From the IMG/VR virus record IMGVR_UViG_3300034018_000459, positions 1-34,937 of that record: a stretch of 34,937 nt of DNA; one strand, 5' to 3'. This document shows, piece by piece, positions 1 through 34,937 of the stretch. Under the pieces are notes generated by a model. The model saw only the letters and a list, made by a program, of their open reading frames with translations. It had not been told where the DNA came from and ran no database searches. This DNA is from a virus. The translations under genes and the position numbers were made by a program. Position 1 is the first letter of the stretch. Each line of letters begins with the position of its first letter.

Positions 1-127
1 TAATAAGTTGTTTTGATGACTCCCAAAATTCTCTTTTATCCTTGAGCTCTGCTTGCAGAATTTGCAGTGCCACGCATACCGGCATGCCTCTCTCAATCAC
101 ATACCAAGCGGCAACCTTAACCAGTCT
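1..127. repeat. Left copy of 127-bp terminal direct repeat
   Basis: Bases 1-127 are identical to 34811-34937. The length equals a common maximum assembler k-mer, so this most likely marks a circular contig and not a packaged terminal repeat. Joining at the repeat gives a 34810-bp circle and restores an intact 59-aa gene across the junction. Confidence 0.95.
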
Positions 128-151
128 CTCATCCGCTTGCTGATCTGTCAT
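1..151 (-). CDS. 59-aa unknown protein, 5' part (gene crosses contig ends)
   Basis: The ATG is at 151-149 and overlaps the stop of the upstream PAS-HisKA gene as ATGA, which suggests translational coupling. Reading runs off the left end of the window and continues at 34810 on the circular molecule, ending with TAA at 34784-34782. The whole protein has 59 residues, begins MTDQQADERLVKVAAW and ends LIQDGVCI. It looks alpha-helical and charged, with no signal peptide or membrane segment. Its last 17 nt overlap the start of the spanin-like gene. I do not recognise the family. Its place in the lysis end of the operon says little about function. Confidence 0.6.
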   Translation of the reverse strand, partial: MTDQQADERLVKVAAWYVIERGMPVCVALQILQAELKDKREFWESSKQLI

Positions 152-714
152 AACTCCCGAGCTGCTTTCTTAACAAGTGCCTTGATTGCATCATCAAGCT
201 TGTTCACTGAACTATGAATCATGCCAAGCAGTTCCTTGCGATCAACATCGCTTGCGACTTGATGCTGCATGAGCATATTCACAAGGCCTGCTATGTTGGT
301 AAGTGGTTGGCGGAGCTCATGAGAAAGCATAAAGCGAAACTCCTCAAGTAGGTTCTTTTGCCGCTCATGCTCATGCGAGCTTATTGATGTAACATCGACT
401 ATCTGAATCCCGACAAAGTGTAGAGTATCATCAATCGCAAAGCAATTCCAAACATTATATCTATCGCTTGCGTTCTTCTGCCTGGTCCGAGCATACACTC
501 TTGAAGGCTCAGGAGAATGCTTGCGAGCTCTTTCAATTGCCTCAATGAAATCTTGCTTGTCACCTTCAATGCTTATGATGTCGGTGATCTTTGTCGGCTT
601 GATATGGCTGACATAGTTCTTGAAGAGCTCGTTGTTGGTGTATATCTTCCCATCACTATCAGTTACGACATAGAAGAGGTCGATTGAATGTTCTAGGATG
701 AAGAGCGAAGACAT
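148..714 (-). CDS. PAS-HisKA protein without ATPase domain (truncated sensor kinase)
   Basis: The product has 188 aa. Residues about 10-110 read as a PAS sensor domain: FYVVTDSDGKIY near the start, and a WNCFAIDD strand with a VGIQIVDVTS ending, typical of PAS before a kinase. Residues 120-185 form a HisKA (DHp) dimerisation and phosphoacceptor helix pair with a classical H-box, FMLSHELRQPLTN; the phosphoacceptor is His132. The protein stops right after the second DHp helix, so the HATPase_c domain (N, G1, F, G2 boxes) is absent and no ATPase ORF lies downstream. It cannot autophosphorylate as it stands. It could dimerise with host kinases, act as a phosphate sink, or bind response regulators; this is inference. 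It overlaps the upstream membrane-protein gene by 22 nt and the next gene by ATGA, so it is a normal operon member and not an obvious fragment. Confidence 0.85.
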   Translation of the reverse strand: MSSLFILEHSIDLFYVVTDSDGKIYTNNELFKNYVSHIKPTKITDIISIEGDKQDFIEAIERARKHSPEPSRVYARTRQKNASDRYNVWNCFAIDDTLHFVGIQIVDVTSISSHEHERQKNLLEEFRFMLSHELRQPLTNIAGLVNMLMQHQVASDVDRKELLGMIHSSVNKLDDAIKALVKKAAREL

Positions 715-1175
715 GCAGAGAGTTCGCTATAAAGGTTATTCCATGCACCCATCGAGCTCCATGCCCATTGCACTGTGAGGTAAATTGTAAAAGTCAACAG
801 CATGCCCATGATTGGCGCATCCATTGTCGGCTTATACTCGGTGAACTCAGTGCGAGGCTTAATGATTATTTTTGCCTCTGGCTTAGGAGCAAGCAAGAAT
901 GCAGATGTGCTTGGTTGAATTGTATCGCTTGCGTAGAATTGTTGCATCGGCTTTGGCTCTGGCACTGGCTCATCGGCAGCAATCTCGAAAGTTTGCCCCC
1001 ATTGATTAGTGCAATATTGCTTGCCAAAGATAGTGAATTTCTCCATTGACTTATACACAACCTGCGACTCTAGTTTAATTACATGATGATGCGTATGGAC
1101 TTTGCAGCCAATACCCACCACGCACCCTTCATCGAGTGTCGTATAAGTTGAGTCTCTTCCGTCATCCATTGTCAT
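693..1175 (-). CDS. Membrane protein of the lysis cluster
   Basis: I start the gene at ATG 1175 (MTMDDGRDS) or the near in-frame ATG at 1169, because longer upstream readings run through the holin-like gene. The product has about 160 aa. The N-terminal half is soluble and has the cluster HTHHH and two cysteines near VVGIGC. A proline-rich stretch (PVPEPKP) follows, and a hydrophobic segment around MGMLLTFTIYLTVQWAW near the C terminus could span the membrane. It sits between the holin candidate and the PAS-HisKA gene and overlaps both. A role in lysis or envelope interaction is inferred from position and membrane anchoring only. Confidence 0.6.
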   Translation of the reverse strand: MTMDDGRDSTYTTLDEGCVVGIGCKVHTHHHVIKLESQVVYKSMEKFTIFGKQYCTNQWGQTFEIAADEPVPEPKPMQQFYASDTIQPSTSAFLLAPKPEAKIIIKPRTEFTEYKPTMDAPIMGMLLTFTIYLTVQWAWSSMGAWNNLYSELSACLRSSS

Positions 1176-3379: not shown

Positions 3380-6057
3380 GCGTAGTTTCCGATTAACATA
3401 ACCTTCAATCCTTTTGCAGTACCATCACCAATCTGGTCTATGTCGATTGTAATCTGGGCATCATCGGCAAGTGCCGTGTCACTTATCACTGGAGGAGTGG
3501 CAGCCGTTGTGCTTGTTGTTTCAGTATTGTCGATTGTCAGCTTAGTGCTTAGAATGCTTGCACCGCCTTCGTTTATGTCAACAGTGAAGATGCTGCCACT
3601 TGCTTGAGCCGTTGTAAGTGATGCTCTTACCGCTGTTAGTGTCACCGCTCTTGGCATTCTAAAAGTAATCTTTGCCGTTCCTGCTGTCAGCGCAGTGGTC
3701 TCATCGGATGCTGCAACAACTAACTCGAACGGAGTTGCAAGATTGCCGCTTCCAAGTATCGAAGTGGAGTTGATTGTCTTGATGTTTACACCACTCGACA
3801 AAGCATCTTGCTTGCCGTTGAATGTTGTCCAATCAGCTGTGCTTAGCGCACCTCTATTGGCAGCACTTGCCGTTGGTAGGTTAAAGGTGTGAGTATCTGT
3901 TGCAGATGATATTCCAAAGTCAGTGCCCGATGTTCCAACTGCTAAGTTTTGCACTTGAGCCGTTAAGCCGTTAAGCGCATTGATGCCAGTGGAGAAAGTC
4001 GTAATGACTTGGCAAAGGTGATTGTCTTCTGTGTGCAGTGTGATTGTCTTGCTGCTATGTATCACGTACACTCTTACTGCAAGCCTATCAGCTGCAAGAA
4101 GTACTGTGCTTGGTACTGCAACCGCCGTTGTGTATAGGTCAATCTGAGTGCCATTGGTGATGAACTCAGGATTTGCAGAGCTTGATGCAAGCAGTGTCAA
4201 TGTTCCTGCGCTAAGCTTGTAAAGCTCAATGTAGAATCTTGGTGTACCTCCGTTGCTATTTGCACTAAAGTACATTTCGAAGTTCCAATTTCCTGCGGGA
4301 ATAGCCAACTGATTAGGTACACTCGCATCGGTAATGAAAGACTGAATGTAACCATCGGCATTGATAGTGAAGTCTGTTCCTGCTCCAATTACTGGAGTGC
4401 CGCTCATCTGCTTAAATGCCACACCTCCAAGTGTACCTTGAGCAACAGATCCGTTGAGGTAGTAGCTAACACTTGAACCTCCTCCGCTTGATGTCGGAAA
4501 GTTTGCAAGTTGACCATCACCTCTGATGTATTGCGTTGAAAGCCCTGCCGCTGCCACCGCTAATGTTCCGCTTGTGGTTACTGGGTTGCCAGTGACAGAA
4601 AATGCAGCAGGCATCGTAAGGTCTACCGATGTAACAGTGCCCGTTGGCAATGTAGGGAATGGAGTCGGTGTTCCAGTGCCATCAAGGTAGTCCGCATTTG
4701 TTCCTGTCGGCACATCAAACTTGCCATCGAAGGTGTTCCAATCTGTTGAGGTTAGATATCCGTCAGTGCTGCCATCAGCTTGAGTGATGCTGATATCTGG
4801 AGTTGCTCCTCCGCTTGATGCGATTGGTGCAGTACCGCTTACCGATGTAACTCCACCAACTGTTACAACTGCCCAAACAGCTGCACCGATTGTATCATCA
4901 GAGCATAGGTAAACAGTTCCATCATCCAAGCTCCAACGTGAACCAACTACAAATCCCTTGGAGCTGTCATCAGTTACTTGAGGTACTGATGTAAAGTTGT
5001 GAGTCACATCGCGAATGGTGAAGCCGTCTTGCTGCATGTAGTACAATCGACCTGCTTCCCATTTAAGCTCATAACTTATTGAGCATATTTGCGCTGTGCC
5101 CTTCGCTCCGCCATTGCCTGCATCGGTAGTTCCTTTGCGAAAGAATGCGCCGTTGTCAAAGGATAGCCCTGCGCTTCCAGTGAATGCAATGTCATTGGTT
5201 GTGCTGTTGCCTTCGTCGGTAACTTCCTGCAAGTCGGGTGTCGTACCACTTCCGCCTGGCACATTTACCTCGACCACTCCAGGTGATGTGAGTGATGCTG
5301 TAACTCCTGCGCCTGTGAAGTTTAAAGTTGTTGTGTTTGTGCTTACGTTAGTGCCTTCCTCTTTGGTGATTAGCGGAGTTCCGCCACCACCACCTATTGC
5401 CACCAATGGATCTGCTTCTGTTCCGTTGCCGGTGATAGTCACCCCATCAACAGCAACCTCCGTCAAGCATGGTGTGCAAGGTTGAAAGTCAGGAAGCGGA
5501 ATGTCACCCGTTGCACAGATGTCATAGCAGCCATCTTCTGTGGTTGTGATCACTTGGATGTCGAAGTCCACAGTAACACAAGCAAACTCGTAGTTGGCTG
5601 TTAATGTTTTAATCTCGTTAATGTAACCGCTAGGAATTACTTCGTAATTAATCACTCCAAGGTTCTGCTTGAATTGTGGATCAGTGCCACTAGTCAGCTT
5701 GTAGATTCTTGAAGCAAGCCAGTCCTGAGCATCATCTCCATCGCATGGCAGATGGCTCTTGCGAACCACAGCATAAGCAGTCAGCGGAAAAGAGGTGACG
5801 TACAACTGCTTGCAGCCACTCATCTTGTAAGCATCCGTCTTTGCAACAGTCACCTTGCCTCTCTTTGCCCAGAACAATGTGCCTTGCTTTGCATCGAAGT
5901 TAGTAACTACCTCCGCTTGACCATTGCCGATGTAGTGCACCCAAGCCTTCTCGTTGCCGTTTGCATTAAGCTCGCAAAGTCCAAACTGCTTGTCAAAGAT
6001 ATTGGCTACCTCAACACGTTGGTTGAGCCGCTCGATGATGGTCTTAAGTAAATTCAT
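3376..6057 (-). CDS. Large tail fibre protein
   Basis: The product has 893 aa. The first about 200 residues form a distinct N-terminal domain likely to attach to the tail. A glycine hinge (GGGGGTP) follows, then a long repetitive Ser/Thr/Gly-rich shaft. Recurring elements include GTVTSVDL, a PVTTSGTLAV type element, LTSTDWNTFDGK and its near copy LSTADWTTFNGKQ, all typical of trimeric phage fibre shafts. The C terminus (about residues 790-893) is a compact beta domain. The fibre probably determines host recognition. Internal repeats make this the most likely place for misassembly or recombination. It is followed by two smaller tail-tip genes. Confidence 0.8.
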   Translation of the reverse strand: MNLLKTIIERLNQRVEVANIFDKQFGLCELNANGNEKAWVHYIGNGQAEVVTNFDAKQGTLFWAKRGKVTVAKTDAYKMSGCKQLYVTSFPLTAYAVVRKSHLPCDGDDAQDWLASRIYKLTSGTDPQFKQNLGVINYEVIPSGYINEIKTLTANYEFACVTVDFDIQVITTTEDGCYDICATGDIPLPDFQPCTPCLTEVAVDGVTITGNGTEADPLVAIGGGGGTPLITKEEGTNVSTNTTTLNFTGAGVTASLTSPGVVEVNVPGGSGTTPDLQEVTDEGNSTTNDIAFTGSAGLSFDNGAFFRKGTTDAGNGGAKGTAQICSISYELKWEAGRLYYMQQDGFTIRDVTHNFTSVPQVTDDSSKGFVVGSRWSLDDGTVYLCSDDTIGAAVWAVVTVGGVTSVSGTAPIASSGGATPDISITQADGSTDGYLTSTDWNTFDGKFDVPTGTNADYLDGTGTPTPFPTLPTGTVTSVDLTMPAAFSVTGNPVTTSGTLAVAAAGLSTQYIRGDGQLANFPTSSGGGSSVSYYLNGSVAQGTLGGVAFKQMSGTPVIGAGTDFTINADGYIQSFITDASVPNQLAIPAGNWNFEMYFSANSNGGTPRFYIELYKLSAGTLTLLASSSANPEFITNGTQIDLYTTAVAVPSTVLLAADRLAVRVYVIHSSKTITLHTEDNHLCQVITTFSTGINALNGLTAQVQNLAVGTSGTDFGISSATDTHTFNLPTASAANRGALSTADWTTFNGKQDALSSGVNIKTINSTSILGSGNLATPFELVVAASDETTALTAGTAKITFRMPRAVTLTAVRASLTTAQASGSIFTVDINEGGASILSTKLTIDNTETTSTTAATPPVISDTALADDAQITIDIDQIGDGTAKGLKVMLIGNYA

Positions 6058-12703: not shown

Positions 12704-13276
12704 TCATCGGTGTAGGATTGAGATGCCACGCCCTTCGGTTGTGTTAAGCGTGACATTGTTATAATTAAAATGCTTTGCGTATTCGACTAGCTTTCTTGGT
12801 CCATCCAAGTGGATCGTGTCATGGTAAACAATCACGCCGCCTCTTGCAACCAACTTCTCAACAAGCTTAAACTCTGGAAGCACATGCTCGAAGCTGTGAT
12901 CGCCGTCAACAAAGATAAGGTCGAAATGGTTCTTAGGCAAGTTATTCAACTCCTCAAGTGAGTTGCCCAGGATGAAGTCAATCGACTTACCACCCTCTGC
13001 CATGTATAGCTTTGTTGCATCTGTTCTATAATCATTGATGTCGATGCCAACATACTGCCCACCCTTTGGCAATGCCTTGATAAGATGCTGCGTTGTCTCA
13101 CCTTCAAACACTCCAATCTCAAGCACAGTCTTGTACTTGCTCATCTTGATGATACTTGCCATAAATTCGCCGCACTCATCCTCTGAGTTCCAGTCGTGAC
13201 GAGCAACCTCTGTGAAAGTCTCAGTGGTCACAATTGCTTTCTTTGGTCTGCCTCTCTTTGGTTTATCGTTTGCCAT
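12704..13276 (-). CDS. AT-hook plus class I SAM methyltransferase
   Basis: From ATG 13276 the product has 190 aa (an ATG at 13282 adds two residues). Residues 5-14 contain KPKRGRPKK, an AT-hook-like minor-groove motif. Residues 45-185 form a Methyltransf_24-like Rossmann domain: motif I VLEIGVFEGETT (51-62), an acidic GIDIND after the second strand, and IFVDGDHSFEH (121-131). No catalytic DPPY or PC motif of DNA methyltransferases is present, so the target is more likely sugar, protein or a small molecule. It overlaps the glycosyltransferase gene, suggesting joint modification of a glycan. Substrate unknown. Confidence 0.8.
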   Translation of the reverse strand: MANDKPKRGRPKKAIVTTETFTEVARHDWNSEDECGEFMASIIKMSKYKTVLEIGVFEGETTQHLIKALPKGGQYVGIDINDYRTDATKLYMAEGGKSIDFILGNSLEELNNLPKNHFDLIFVDGDHSFEHVLPEFKLVEKLVARGGVIVYHDTIHLDGPRKLVEYAKHFNYNNVTLNTTEGRGISILHR

Positions 13277-14219
13277 CTGCATATTTGTTTTGTGCTATTC
13301 TGCTTATTAGGTAGATATGTCTTTTGCCAATTGCCTTGAAGTCTGCTGCAAGCATCCTGTCAAGCCAGTCGATGTAAAATCTTGGAGTGAATCCTGCGCC
13401 GCCGTAGTAGCTTTGCAAGTAGTAGTTCTCAGTAATATCTTGGAAGCTCAAGCCTCTCTGCATCGCGAAGTGAATCATACCACCTTCGCTGCTATCGTTT
13501 TTAGTGTAAGCCTTAAGCGCAGGATCAATGCCATGAATCGCAAGTGCGACATTCATGTACAACTCATCTGGCTGCCCACCGCCCCACTTCATGCGGAGGT
13601 CTTTGATGGGGATCGGATTGTTGAAGTACAAGTCTTTGGCAGTGCGATAAATCGCTTCTGCCTGTGAGCCTTTCACTATCCACTGCATGGAGCTGTTGAT
13701 GGCAGGCATCACGTAGGACTCAAGCAAGTTGAAATGCGCCCACATCTTATCCGCCCACGCCCACTGCATCTCCTTGAAGTCTCGCCCTTTGTCTATGGTG
13801 TGATACCCAACGCAATGGCTTATGTAATCTTTGCCCGACTGAGTTAATTCGTCAATCATCGGCTGAATGTCTTTGACTGCAATCGCATCTACATCAAGGT
13901 AGAGGTTGCGGTCGTATGGCAAGTATTTATATAAATTCACTTTCACCTTGCCGGGATCAAGCTTCTTGTTGGTGTAGATGTCCTCAAGTGCAATGTGCCC
14001 AATGTGGTTGATGTATTGCATCAAGTCATGGCAGTGCGACAATGCCTTAATCGGATCATCAAACAGCACTGTGATCTTGACATTCGGGCTGTGCTTTCTG
14101 ATGCTAAATGCAAGGTTGTAAGCAGCCCAATAATATTGCGGCTTGCCGAATGCAAGAAGCACCACCCCTGTTGAAGGAGTGATGCTCTGAGTGGTAGTAG
14201 ATGTCGATTGCTCGTTCAT
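13263..14219 (-). CDS. GT8-like glycosyltransferase
   Basis: I start at ATG 14219 (MNEQSTSTTTQS), overlapping the tail-protein stop as TAATG; the reading from 14273 would overlap it by 55 nt. The product has 318 aa. GVVLLAFGKPQYYWAAYNLA (19-38) matches the nucleotide-sugar binding start of GT-A folds. LYLDVDAIAV (107-116) holds a DxD metal motif at 109-111. WGGGQPDELYMN near residue 225 resembles the GT8 acceptor and DxxxxN region. It probably transfers a sugar from a nucleotide donor. With the neighbouring methyltransferase it may decorate virion proteins or modify host polysaccharide. Confidence 0.75.
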   Translation of the reverse strand: MNEQSTSTTTQSITPSTGVVLLAFGKPQYYWAAYNLAFSIRKHSPNVKITVLFDDPIKALSHCHDLMQYINHIGHIALEDIYTNKKLDPGKVKVNLYKYLPYDRNLYLDVDAIAVKDIQPMIDELTQSGKDYISHCVGYHTIDKGRDFKEMQWAWADKMWAHFNLLESYVMPAINSSMQWIVKGSQAEAIYRTAKDLYFNNPIPIKDLRMKWGGGQPDELYMNVALAIHGIDPALKAYTKNDSSEGGMIHFAMQRGLSFQDITENYYLQSYYGGAGFTPRFYIDWLDRMLAADFKAIGKRHIYLISRIAQNKYADGKR

Positions 14220-14755
14220 TAGAATACACCTGGAGGCGCATCGTATTGCGCAGGAATGTTTTTGTTTCTCCAAGAGAATGTTACCTCATAACGCTGAAGC
14301 TCGTTGTTCTGCTCAGGCAAGATGAAGTTTGCAGATGTCGTGATACCAACTGGAGCAGTAACATAAAGTACCTTTCCGCTGTCGCACATGTACGCAAGTA
14401 TCCAAGAGATACGGCGATTGTTAACATCGTTCCAGAATACGCTGTTGCCATCAGTCACGTTAGCATCGTACAAAGTCGCTGTGCGATCTTCGTTGATACG
14501 GATTGATGTACCACAACCGATTGGTGAATCAACAGTGATAGGTGAACCAGCAGGAAGTGCAAAGCGGATGTCGCTGATCATTCTGGCTTCGCCAGATGCA
14601 AGCAACGCATCAACCTCAACAGCATCTGAAGGATCAACAAGCTCAGTGCCACAAGCACCGACAATGATAGCGGAAACTCCGCCGAGTTTATATTCGTTGC
14701 AAAGCACCAAGTCGTGCTCTAGCAAGGATGTGTCGCAATAGGATACACAGGCCAT
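14219..14755 (-). CDS. Probable major tail (tube) protein
   Basis: The product has 178 aa and starts MACVSYCDTSLLEHDLVLCN. Beta-rich composition, moderate size, a C-terminal YEVTFSWRNKNIP strand and a separate promoter-like motif with an 80-nt leader suggest a highly expressed structural protein. In a siphophage the obvious missing part is the tail tube. The gene lies after the tape measure and tail-tip genes, not before them, so the call rests on composition and elimination. Four cysteines in the first 35 residues are unusual. Confidence 0.5.
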   Translation of the reverse strand: MACVSYCDTSLLEHDLVLCNEYKLGGVSAIIVGACGTELVDPSDAVEVDALLASGEARMISDIRFALPAGSPITVDSPIGCGTSIRINEDRTATLYDANVTDGNSVFWNDVNNRRISWILAYMCDSGKVLYVTAPVGITTSANFILPEQNNELQRYEVTFSWRNKNIPAQYDAPPGVF

Positions 14756-34153: not shown

Positions 34154-34798
34154 TTATTTTCTACTTGCTCCCAATCCGAATCCAATGATTGCACCAACTC
34201 CCACCTTGAATGCAGTTGTTTGATGCCACTTTTTATCTTGCTTGATGTAGATGTTGCTCATGCCGGTGATGGCCACATTGGGATTGTCGACTCTCAGGCG
34301 GACCACCGTATCCTTCTTTTTAAGCAGCCTATTCACGAAGCCAGTGCGCATGGTGTCGCCCACTGCATAGGTGAACTTTGCAGGAATGGAGATGCTGTCG
34401 AGTTGCAACCACCCTAGGCGGTTGATCATGCCGCCGATTGTGTACCACTCGGTTGTTTTAAGGAATGGCTTTGGCAGTTGGATGTATGGCTTCTTATCAA
34501 TCATCACAGTATCGCCAAGCAGGATCTCGGTTTTGATAATTGTCCTGGTCTCAATCTTTACAACCTCGCTTGCGTTCTTTACTTTCACTTCGAGCTCTGC
34601 GATTTGCTGTGCTTGTTTGGCTGCATCAGATGAGCCCTGTGCGATTATCTTCTTCTGTGAGGCGATAAGTACGCTGTCCTCATATATCGTGTGCTTAAGG
34701 CGATAATCGGACTGTGCCCCATCGCCGCAAGTTTTTAGCAGTAGGAATAGAAGCACTATGATTGTGGCAAAGCTGATGTACTTATATACAGACTCCAT
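34154..34798 (-). CDS. Spanin-like membrane-anchored coiled-coil protein
   Basis: I start at ATG 34798 (MESVYKYISFATIIVLLFLL); the reading from 34906 extends into the 59-aa gene. The product has 214 aa. A transmembrane anchor at about 8-22 is followed by a coiled coil (residues 28-85, KQAQQIAELEVKVKNASEVV), a beta-rich periplasmic domain, and a C-terminal hydrophobic segment (AFKVGVGAIIGFGLGASRK). This layout is common at the end of Bacteroidota phage lysis cassettes. It may act like a unimolecular spanin or membrane-linked tail-independent factor; no lipobox is seen. Confidence 0.65.
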   Translation of the reverse strand: MESVYKYISFATIIVLLFLLLKTCGDGAQSDYRLKHTIYEDSVLIASQKKIIAQGSSDAAKQAQQIAELEVKVKNASEVVKIETRTIIKTEILLGDTVMIDKKPYIQLPKPFLKTTEWYTIGGMINRLGWLQLDSISIPAKFTYAVGDTMRTGFVNRLLKKKDTVVRLRVDNPNVAITGMSNIYIKQDKKWHQTTAFKVGVGAIIGFGLGASRK

Positions 34799-34937
34799 CT
34801 TGTATGAGTTTAATAAGTTGTTTTGATGACTCCCAAAATTCTCTTTTATCCTTGAGCTCTGCTTGCAGAATTTGCAGTGCCACGCATACCGGCATGCCTC
34901 TCTCAATCACATACCAAGCGGCAACCTTAACCAGTCT
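34782..34937 (-). CDS. 59-aa unknown protein, 3' part
   Basis: This is the right-hand copy of the gene that begins at 151-149. The window ends inside it, so the first eight codons are missing here. Positions 34811-34937 duplicate 1-127, and 34810-34782 supply the C terminus (LIQDGVCI and TAA). Confidence 0.6.
   Translation of the reverse strand, partial: RLVKVAAWYVIERGMPVCVALQILQAELKDKREFWESSKQLIKLIQDGVCI
34811..34937. repeat. Right copy of 127-bp terminal direct repeat
   Basis: Exact duplicate of 1-127; one copy should be removed to make the 34810-bp circle. Confidence 0.95.

Follow-up and report, generated by a model that had tools for sequence, protein, structure and literature searches.

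A kinase-less PAS–DHp protein with an invariant histidine is a core gene of the lysis module in a clade of phages

A clade of uncultured phages, which probably infect Bacteroidota, encodes, as a core gene of its lysis module, a short protein that joins a PAS domain to the DHp hairpin of a histidine kinase and ends where the ATPase (CA) domain would start. We analyzed the gene for this kinase-less protein, hereafter the stub, in a viral DNA of 34,937 nucleotides (IMG/VR record IMGVR_UViG_3300034018_000459; "the window" denotes this whole stretch) and in its relatives. The candidate phosphoacceptor, His132, is invariant among all distinct complete stubs aligned. The reading that we tentatively favor, which falls a little short of being probable, is that the stub is a PAS-gated phosphoacceptor acting in trans on host two-component signalling late in infection.

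The stub reading frame runs on the minus strand from 714 to 148, and the reverse complement yields a clean 188-aa protein with the H-box S131-H132-E-L-R-Q-P; the plus strand over 148–714 is closed by many stops. The original prediction, which had placed an operon-embedded gene with an intact H-box (His132 in SHELRQP) at these positions, thus describes a real open reading frame on the minus strand, with the H-box in the reverse-complement translation. Both of the overlaps that it had named are present, namely 22 nt with the upstream ORF (693–714) and an ATGA overlap with the downstream gene (148–151), so that the stub is embedded in an operon. The major genes of the window all lie on the minus strand, and because of the perfect 127-bp terminal repeats the window is probably a complete circular genome. 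Among the structural genes, positions 12704–14273 hold an O-methyltransferase-like gene followed by a gene that looks glycosyltransferase-like by eye, and both occur in 10/10 near-complete relatives.

Table 1 Coordinates of the stub gene, its domains and the neighbouring features in the window.
Feature	Position	Strand	Remarks
Direct terminal repeat, 127 bp	1..127 = 34811..34937	.	Two identical copies
ATGA-coupled downstream gene, 59 aa	1..151 + 34782..34937	-	Wraps the record ends through the terminal repeat
PAS-DHp stub gene	148..714	-	188 aa; ATG start; TGA stop = 148-150
DHp/HisKA helical hairpin, residues 113-187	154..378	-	Pfam HisKA and AF2 helices 113-150, 156-187
Gln136 codon CAA, H+4 position	307..309	-	Thr/Asn in HisKA phosphatases; Gln 89, Ser 3, His 1 in relatives
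His132 codon CAT, predicted phosphoacceptor	319..321	-	Invariant in 93/93 distinct relatives
PAS domain, residues 9-109	388..690	-	Ends in DVTSI (DIT-type) motif; AF2 blocks pLDDT 81-88
Upstream ORF, about 160 aa from ATG	693..1175	-	Hydrophobic C-terminal segment; 22-nt overlap with stub
Holin-like membrane protein, 67 aa	1162..1365	-	Putative role
Endolysin (phage lysozyme)	1485..1940	-	PF00959 E=1.1e-42; phrog_7 endolysin
Spanin-like gene, N-terminal membrane segment	34154..34798	-	DUF6549 E=0.0014, below cut-off; putative spanin, judged from anatomy

HMM searches bore out the PAS and HisKA domains that had been proposed from the sequence of the window. Pfam HisKA (PF00512) matches residues 129–179 with E=5.8e-9 and 36.3 bits against a cut-off of 26.9, and it also exceeds the cut-off in the relatives L235, L213 and L194. 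The Pfam PAS match of the stub is weak (PAS_9, E=0.1, below cut-off); the NCBIfam PhoR/PnpS models (TIGR02966, NF046044) span residues 15–182 and thus PAS and DHp in the order found in kinases. The AlphaFold2 model, computed from an alignment of 35 diverse relatives, reaches a mean pLDDT of 76.6 (57 when the alignment held 27 close relatives only) and contains two long antiparallel helices, 113–150 and 156–187, with a pLDDT of 65–81, weaker than the PAS part. Residues 9–109 adopt a PAS fold in this model, with ARNT PAS-B (4xt2_B) as the best match (Z 13.7, rmsd 2.0, 100 residues), and the best full-length Foldseek matches are PAS/LOV histidine kinases, e.g. 4gcz (E=2e-6). Since the rows of the structural alignment (VIA-align) span the PAS part only, support for the DHp fold comes from HisKA homology and the predicted helices. 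No HATPase_c domain follows the H-box, as had been claimed, and the protein ends after the DHp hairpin; the HisKA model has 66 positions, so the stub stops where the DHp ends and the CA domain would start.

HATPase_c, whose presence in a corrected assembly would have spoken against the original prediction, is absent from the whole 34.9-kb window and from 17 related contigs, several of these records being fragments. Likewise, Response_reg is absent from the 18 records, several of them fragments. The same searches recovered HATPase_c in 14/14 and Response_reg in 12/14 control genomes. A split kinase with its CA domain elsewhere in the phage is ruled out by the absence of HATPase_c from the window and the 17 related contigs. 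As the phages carry neither a CA domain nor a receiver, any phosphate, and with it a partner, must come from the host.

Scanning IMG/VR with the stub protein revealed 110 stretches that encode relatives; among the best 80 of these, 79 encode 188 aa with an identical ATGA junction and the remaining one is cut by the end of its contig. The H-box pattern SHExRQPxxNIxG matched this stub family only, and the wider pattern SHExRxPLxxIxG reached homologues of 188–189 aa with the same end at 50–66% identity. With the most divergent of these homologues as query, at least 291 IMG/VR stretches were found to encode relatives. In all 131 distinct full proteins with the family H-box signature, the C terminus lies 56 or 57 residues past the His, a count for which the regular expression itself demands HE-x-R-x-P and loci cut by a contig end are left out. 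Apparent 60-aa versions arise from GTG starts or from a short stored stretch; the exception, L206, is a single frameshifted stub copy among many contigs. The wide pattern also caught full-length kinases with an ATPase G-box; these read (S/T)HExRTPL, and the G-box-bearing viral-contig kinases of the pattern sample carry Thr at H+4 in 9/9 cases. The homologues of the family are stubs and not full kinases. A dN/dS of 0.084 for the whole gene (0.066 for the PAS half and 0.111 for the DHp half, dS ~1) indicates that the stub gene is under strong purifying selection. The claim that the gene is not decaying therefore holds, with the same end in 131 distinct proteins and a dN/dS of ~0.08. Sequencing error or decay is ruled out by the conserved family, its shared length and end, this dN/dS and the conserved synteny.

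All near-complete relatives (10/10) encode the stub within a nearly identical gene set, and the order lysozyme, holin-like gene, membrane ORF, stub, 59-aa gene and spanin-like gene is kept at 50–66% stub identity. For a test of presence that is independent of the stub, contigs were chosen by their major capsid protein (MCP), and the resulting 32 long contigs were subjected to a profile search, which found the stub in 25/32. Four of the seven misses (G027, G030, G043 and G047) are contigs that stop short of the lysis region or barely enter it, and a fifth (G031) has no similarity to the window phage. The remaining two, G018 and G025, carry a very divergent 175-aa stub (hhalign probability 97%, E=6.5e-11; BLASTP against L235, E=2e-18), and G038, among the 25 matches, encodes a 162-aa stub; each of these two versions occurs in two contigs. 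The stub thus belongs to the core of the clade's lysis module, and every long MCP-selected relative with a lysis region encodes it. The lysis context described in the original prediction is strengthened by this result, as the stub is locked in the lysis module throughout the clade. G018 keeps the stub although its endolysin is not the lysozyme but one of another type, peptidase-looking by eye. This swap separates close relatives, with the replacement at 5545..5116 on the minus strand of L444 (G018) versus the lysozyme of L447 (G025), and a stub in both. A homologue of the 59-aa gene follows the stub in the main clade (41–97% identity, usually ATGA-coupled); it is missing from L235, G018, G025 and G038, all of which have the stub, and no family match was found for the 59-aa protein. 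The stub also occurs on longer contigs, G024 with 52,227 bp and the L398 contig with 62,297 bp, compared with a norm of 34–38 kb; these two may be larger relatives, concatemers or chimeric assemblies.

The host is likely a member of the Bacteroidota, judging from a helicase whose best matches are Cellulophaga and Flavobacterium phage helicases (36–38% identity), gene starts without clear Shine-Dalgarno sequences and primase domains that include BT4734-like_N. A tblastn search of the INPHARED phages gave no match to the stub, capsid or portal of the window and no sequence relative of the 175-aa version, and the L235 query hit partial pieces only, in unannotated Listeria and Enterococcus phage records. 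Plasmids gave one weak partial match. A scan of genome contigs with two short patterns, aimed at the nearest host kinases, matched no relative. Among viral structure models, Foldseek retrieved PAS-like proteins of 172 aa from phage phi18:3 (E 3.5e-3) and 240 aa from phi19:1 (E 1.4e-2), which by their length look like Cellulophaga phage phi18:3 gp090 (L459:39102-39620) and phi19:1 gp108 (L461:6203-6925). Both gp090 and gp108 have a hydrophobic N-terminal segment, lie near endolysin or lysozyme genes and show no Pfam match. On the strength of these models, PAS-fold proteins may recur in the lysis modules of Bacteroidota phages.

Residue conservation was counted in an alignment of 93 distinct complete stubs with identities down to about 23%, most of which had been retrieved with patterns that lie outside the H-box. 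All of them (93/93) have His132, even the versions at 22–27% identity in which Pro137 and further residues of the H-box are lost; Glu133 occurs in 92/93, Gly143 (H+11) is invariant, and the H+4 residue is Gln in 89, Ser in three and His in one, with Thr or Asn in none of the 93. Synonymous variants occur at the codons for H132 (CAT/CAC), E133, R135 and G143, which places the constraint on the protein. Part of the H-box is dispensable in the shorter versions, since the 162-aa version of G038 has Lys in place of Glu and the 175-aa versions have lost Arg135, Gln136 and Pro137. In these very divergent stubs (L443:1103-1588 of G038, LNHKLRSSS; L447:6759-7283 of G025, IHHELLSHHS) the H-boxes are degraded and the His is kept. 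The G025 stub (IHHELLSHHS) is histidine-rich and might bind metal.

In the HisKA kinases CrdS, HK853, HK1190 and HK4262, the kinase activity depends on the Glu next to the His and the phosphatase activity does not, while Thr or Asn at H+4 is required by the phosphatase activity alone (PMC3510030). Stubs keep what a phosphoacceptor needs, the His and the Glu, and never the phosphatase residue, which would favor a phosphoacceptor over a phosphatase. The concentration of invariant columns around the H-box, the low dN/dS and the conserved lysis-module neighbourhood also speak for this reading, and precedents exist in ChpT for a DHp dimer that shuttles phosphate without using ATP (PMC3433190) and in PIT4 for a phage protein directed at host kinases (PMC10714779). 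Under this preferred reading, the stub would dimerise via its DHp hairpin, and His132 would be phosphorylated in trans, either within a mixed dimer, by the histidine kinase of the host, or through back-transfer from one of the host's response regulators. The state of the PAS domain would gate the phosphate exchange at His132, and in this way a two-component pathway of the host would be diverted or rewired late in infection, at about the time when the lysis genes are expressed, a timing suggested by gene order only. The original prediction had suggested three possible actions, namely mixed dimers with host kinases, a drain of phosphate from a response regulator and the timing of lysis. A more specific version, which we regard as doubtful, is a lysis-timing device made of histidine-kinase parts, in which the PAS domain would sense the condition of the infected cell, phosphate would pass between the DHp His and a host two-component pathway, and the host phosphorelay would thereby tune lysis or late host physiology; the stubs would then form a phage-specific, kinase-less class. 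Against any phosphoacceptor reading, the conserved His could have a non-phosphoryl role.

Another explanation is competitive binding, in which host kinases would dock with their CA domain or dimer interface onto the conserved H-box as a decoy and be blocked, no phosphoryl transfer being required. In a deep alignment (A2), 14/21 columns are invariant at positions 124–144 compared with 34/167 elsewhere (Fisher p=2.8e-5), and this unbroken conserved block, covering all helix faces, is more than packing alone would give. A docking surface would fit such a block, DHp hairpins are dimerisation modules, and several Pseudomonas kinase domains are bound by the phage protein PIT4, which changes the pathways concerned (PMC10714779). 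However, no DHp domain is reported for PIT4, and the strict invariance of the His is more easily explained by chemistry than by docking. We consider competitive binding rather unlikely.

The stub could also act as a phosphatase that binds a host response regulator and strips its phosphate, like the isolated DHp of EnvZ or NtrB. The DHp of NtrB or EnvZ alone is sufficient for this activity and confers a constitutive phosphatase phenotype in vivo (PMC3510030), and the DHp of the stub is complete. The residues at H+4 nevertheless speak against it, with Thr or Asn in 0/93 relatives and no measurable phosphatase activity in CrdS N375Q (PMC3510030). Moreover, the CrdS phosphatase does not need the Glu and needs the His only partly (PMC3510030), yet stubs keep both almost always. 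On this comparison a simple phosphatase is less likely than a phosphoacceptor, and we give it a low probability. The Gln at H+4 may be no more than a legacy of an ancestor that already had it, and Gln is found at this position in some kinases in nature, e.g. FixL.

We judge equally improbable a sensor or scaffold confined to the lysis module, in which a PAS-driven dimer would act on the holin, the ~160-aa membrane protein or the 59-aa protein and time lysis without host partners. Its position between the holin and spanin-like genes is fixed clade-wide and kept through the endolysin swap, the coupled 59-aa gene lies downstream throughout the main clade, and PAS-fold proteins may adjoin endolysins in two cultured Cellulophaga phages. 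Such a role, however, leaves the invariant phosphoacceptor His unexplained, a residue that is solvent-exposed in known DHp domains, and the stub persists in the four relatives that lack the 59-aa gene. Finally, the chance that the stub is the decaying remnant of a captured and truncated full kinase, to which the frameshifted L206 copy, one of many contigs, could be fitted, is practically nil given the equal length and end of the 131 signature-bearing proteins, a dN/dS of 0.08 and synteny kept at 50–66% identity.

Phage control of host two-component signalling has so far been known from a few unrelated inhibitors, and the open-access literature (PMC) yielded phage inhibitors of two-component systems and no description of a PAS-DHp phage family that lacks the kinase domain. 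The stub, by contrast, is a sensor and putative phosphoacceptor that derives from a kinase, has no kinase domain, carries an invariant His and is a core gene of the lysis module throughout a phage clade. If the stub does exchange phosphate with the host, it would link the host signal state to late infection and provide a natural stand-alone DHp tool. As a putative kinase-derived phosphoacceptor, it is a new version of a known protein type rather than categorically new. With PAS-sensor HisKA kinases of the PhoR/PnpS type it shares the PAS domain, the DIT-type motif, the DHp hairpin and the SHE(L/I)R-P H-box, but it has no HATPase_c/CA domain and no membrane segment, measures 188 aa and carries Gln at H+4. 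The full-length histidine kinases of phages and other viruses (PHROG 10912, BFVD) are related by distant PAS/HisKA homology and keep the ATPase domain that the stub lacks. The isolated DHp domains of EnvZ and NtrB, which are laboratory constructs, resemble it as a DHp alone of about the same extent, whereas they have Thr or Asn at H+4 and are phosphatases, and the phage family has Gln, Ser or His. PIT4 of Pseudomonas phage LSL4 is likewise a phage protein aimed at host histidine kinases, as is predicted for the stub; it is an early gene, is not reported as PAS or DHp, and kinase binding is shown for PIT4 only. Spo0B and ChpT keep a CA-like C-terminal domain, whereas the stub has none, ends 56–57 residues past the His and adds a PAS domain. 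What they have in common with the stub, for the latter by sequence only (His 93/93, no CA), is a histidine kinase-like DHp with a conserved His and no working kinase domain. Spo0B and ChpT pass phosphate by means of it without being autokinases. The ChpT DHp dimer is unable to use ATP and still shuttles phosphate (PMC3433190).
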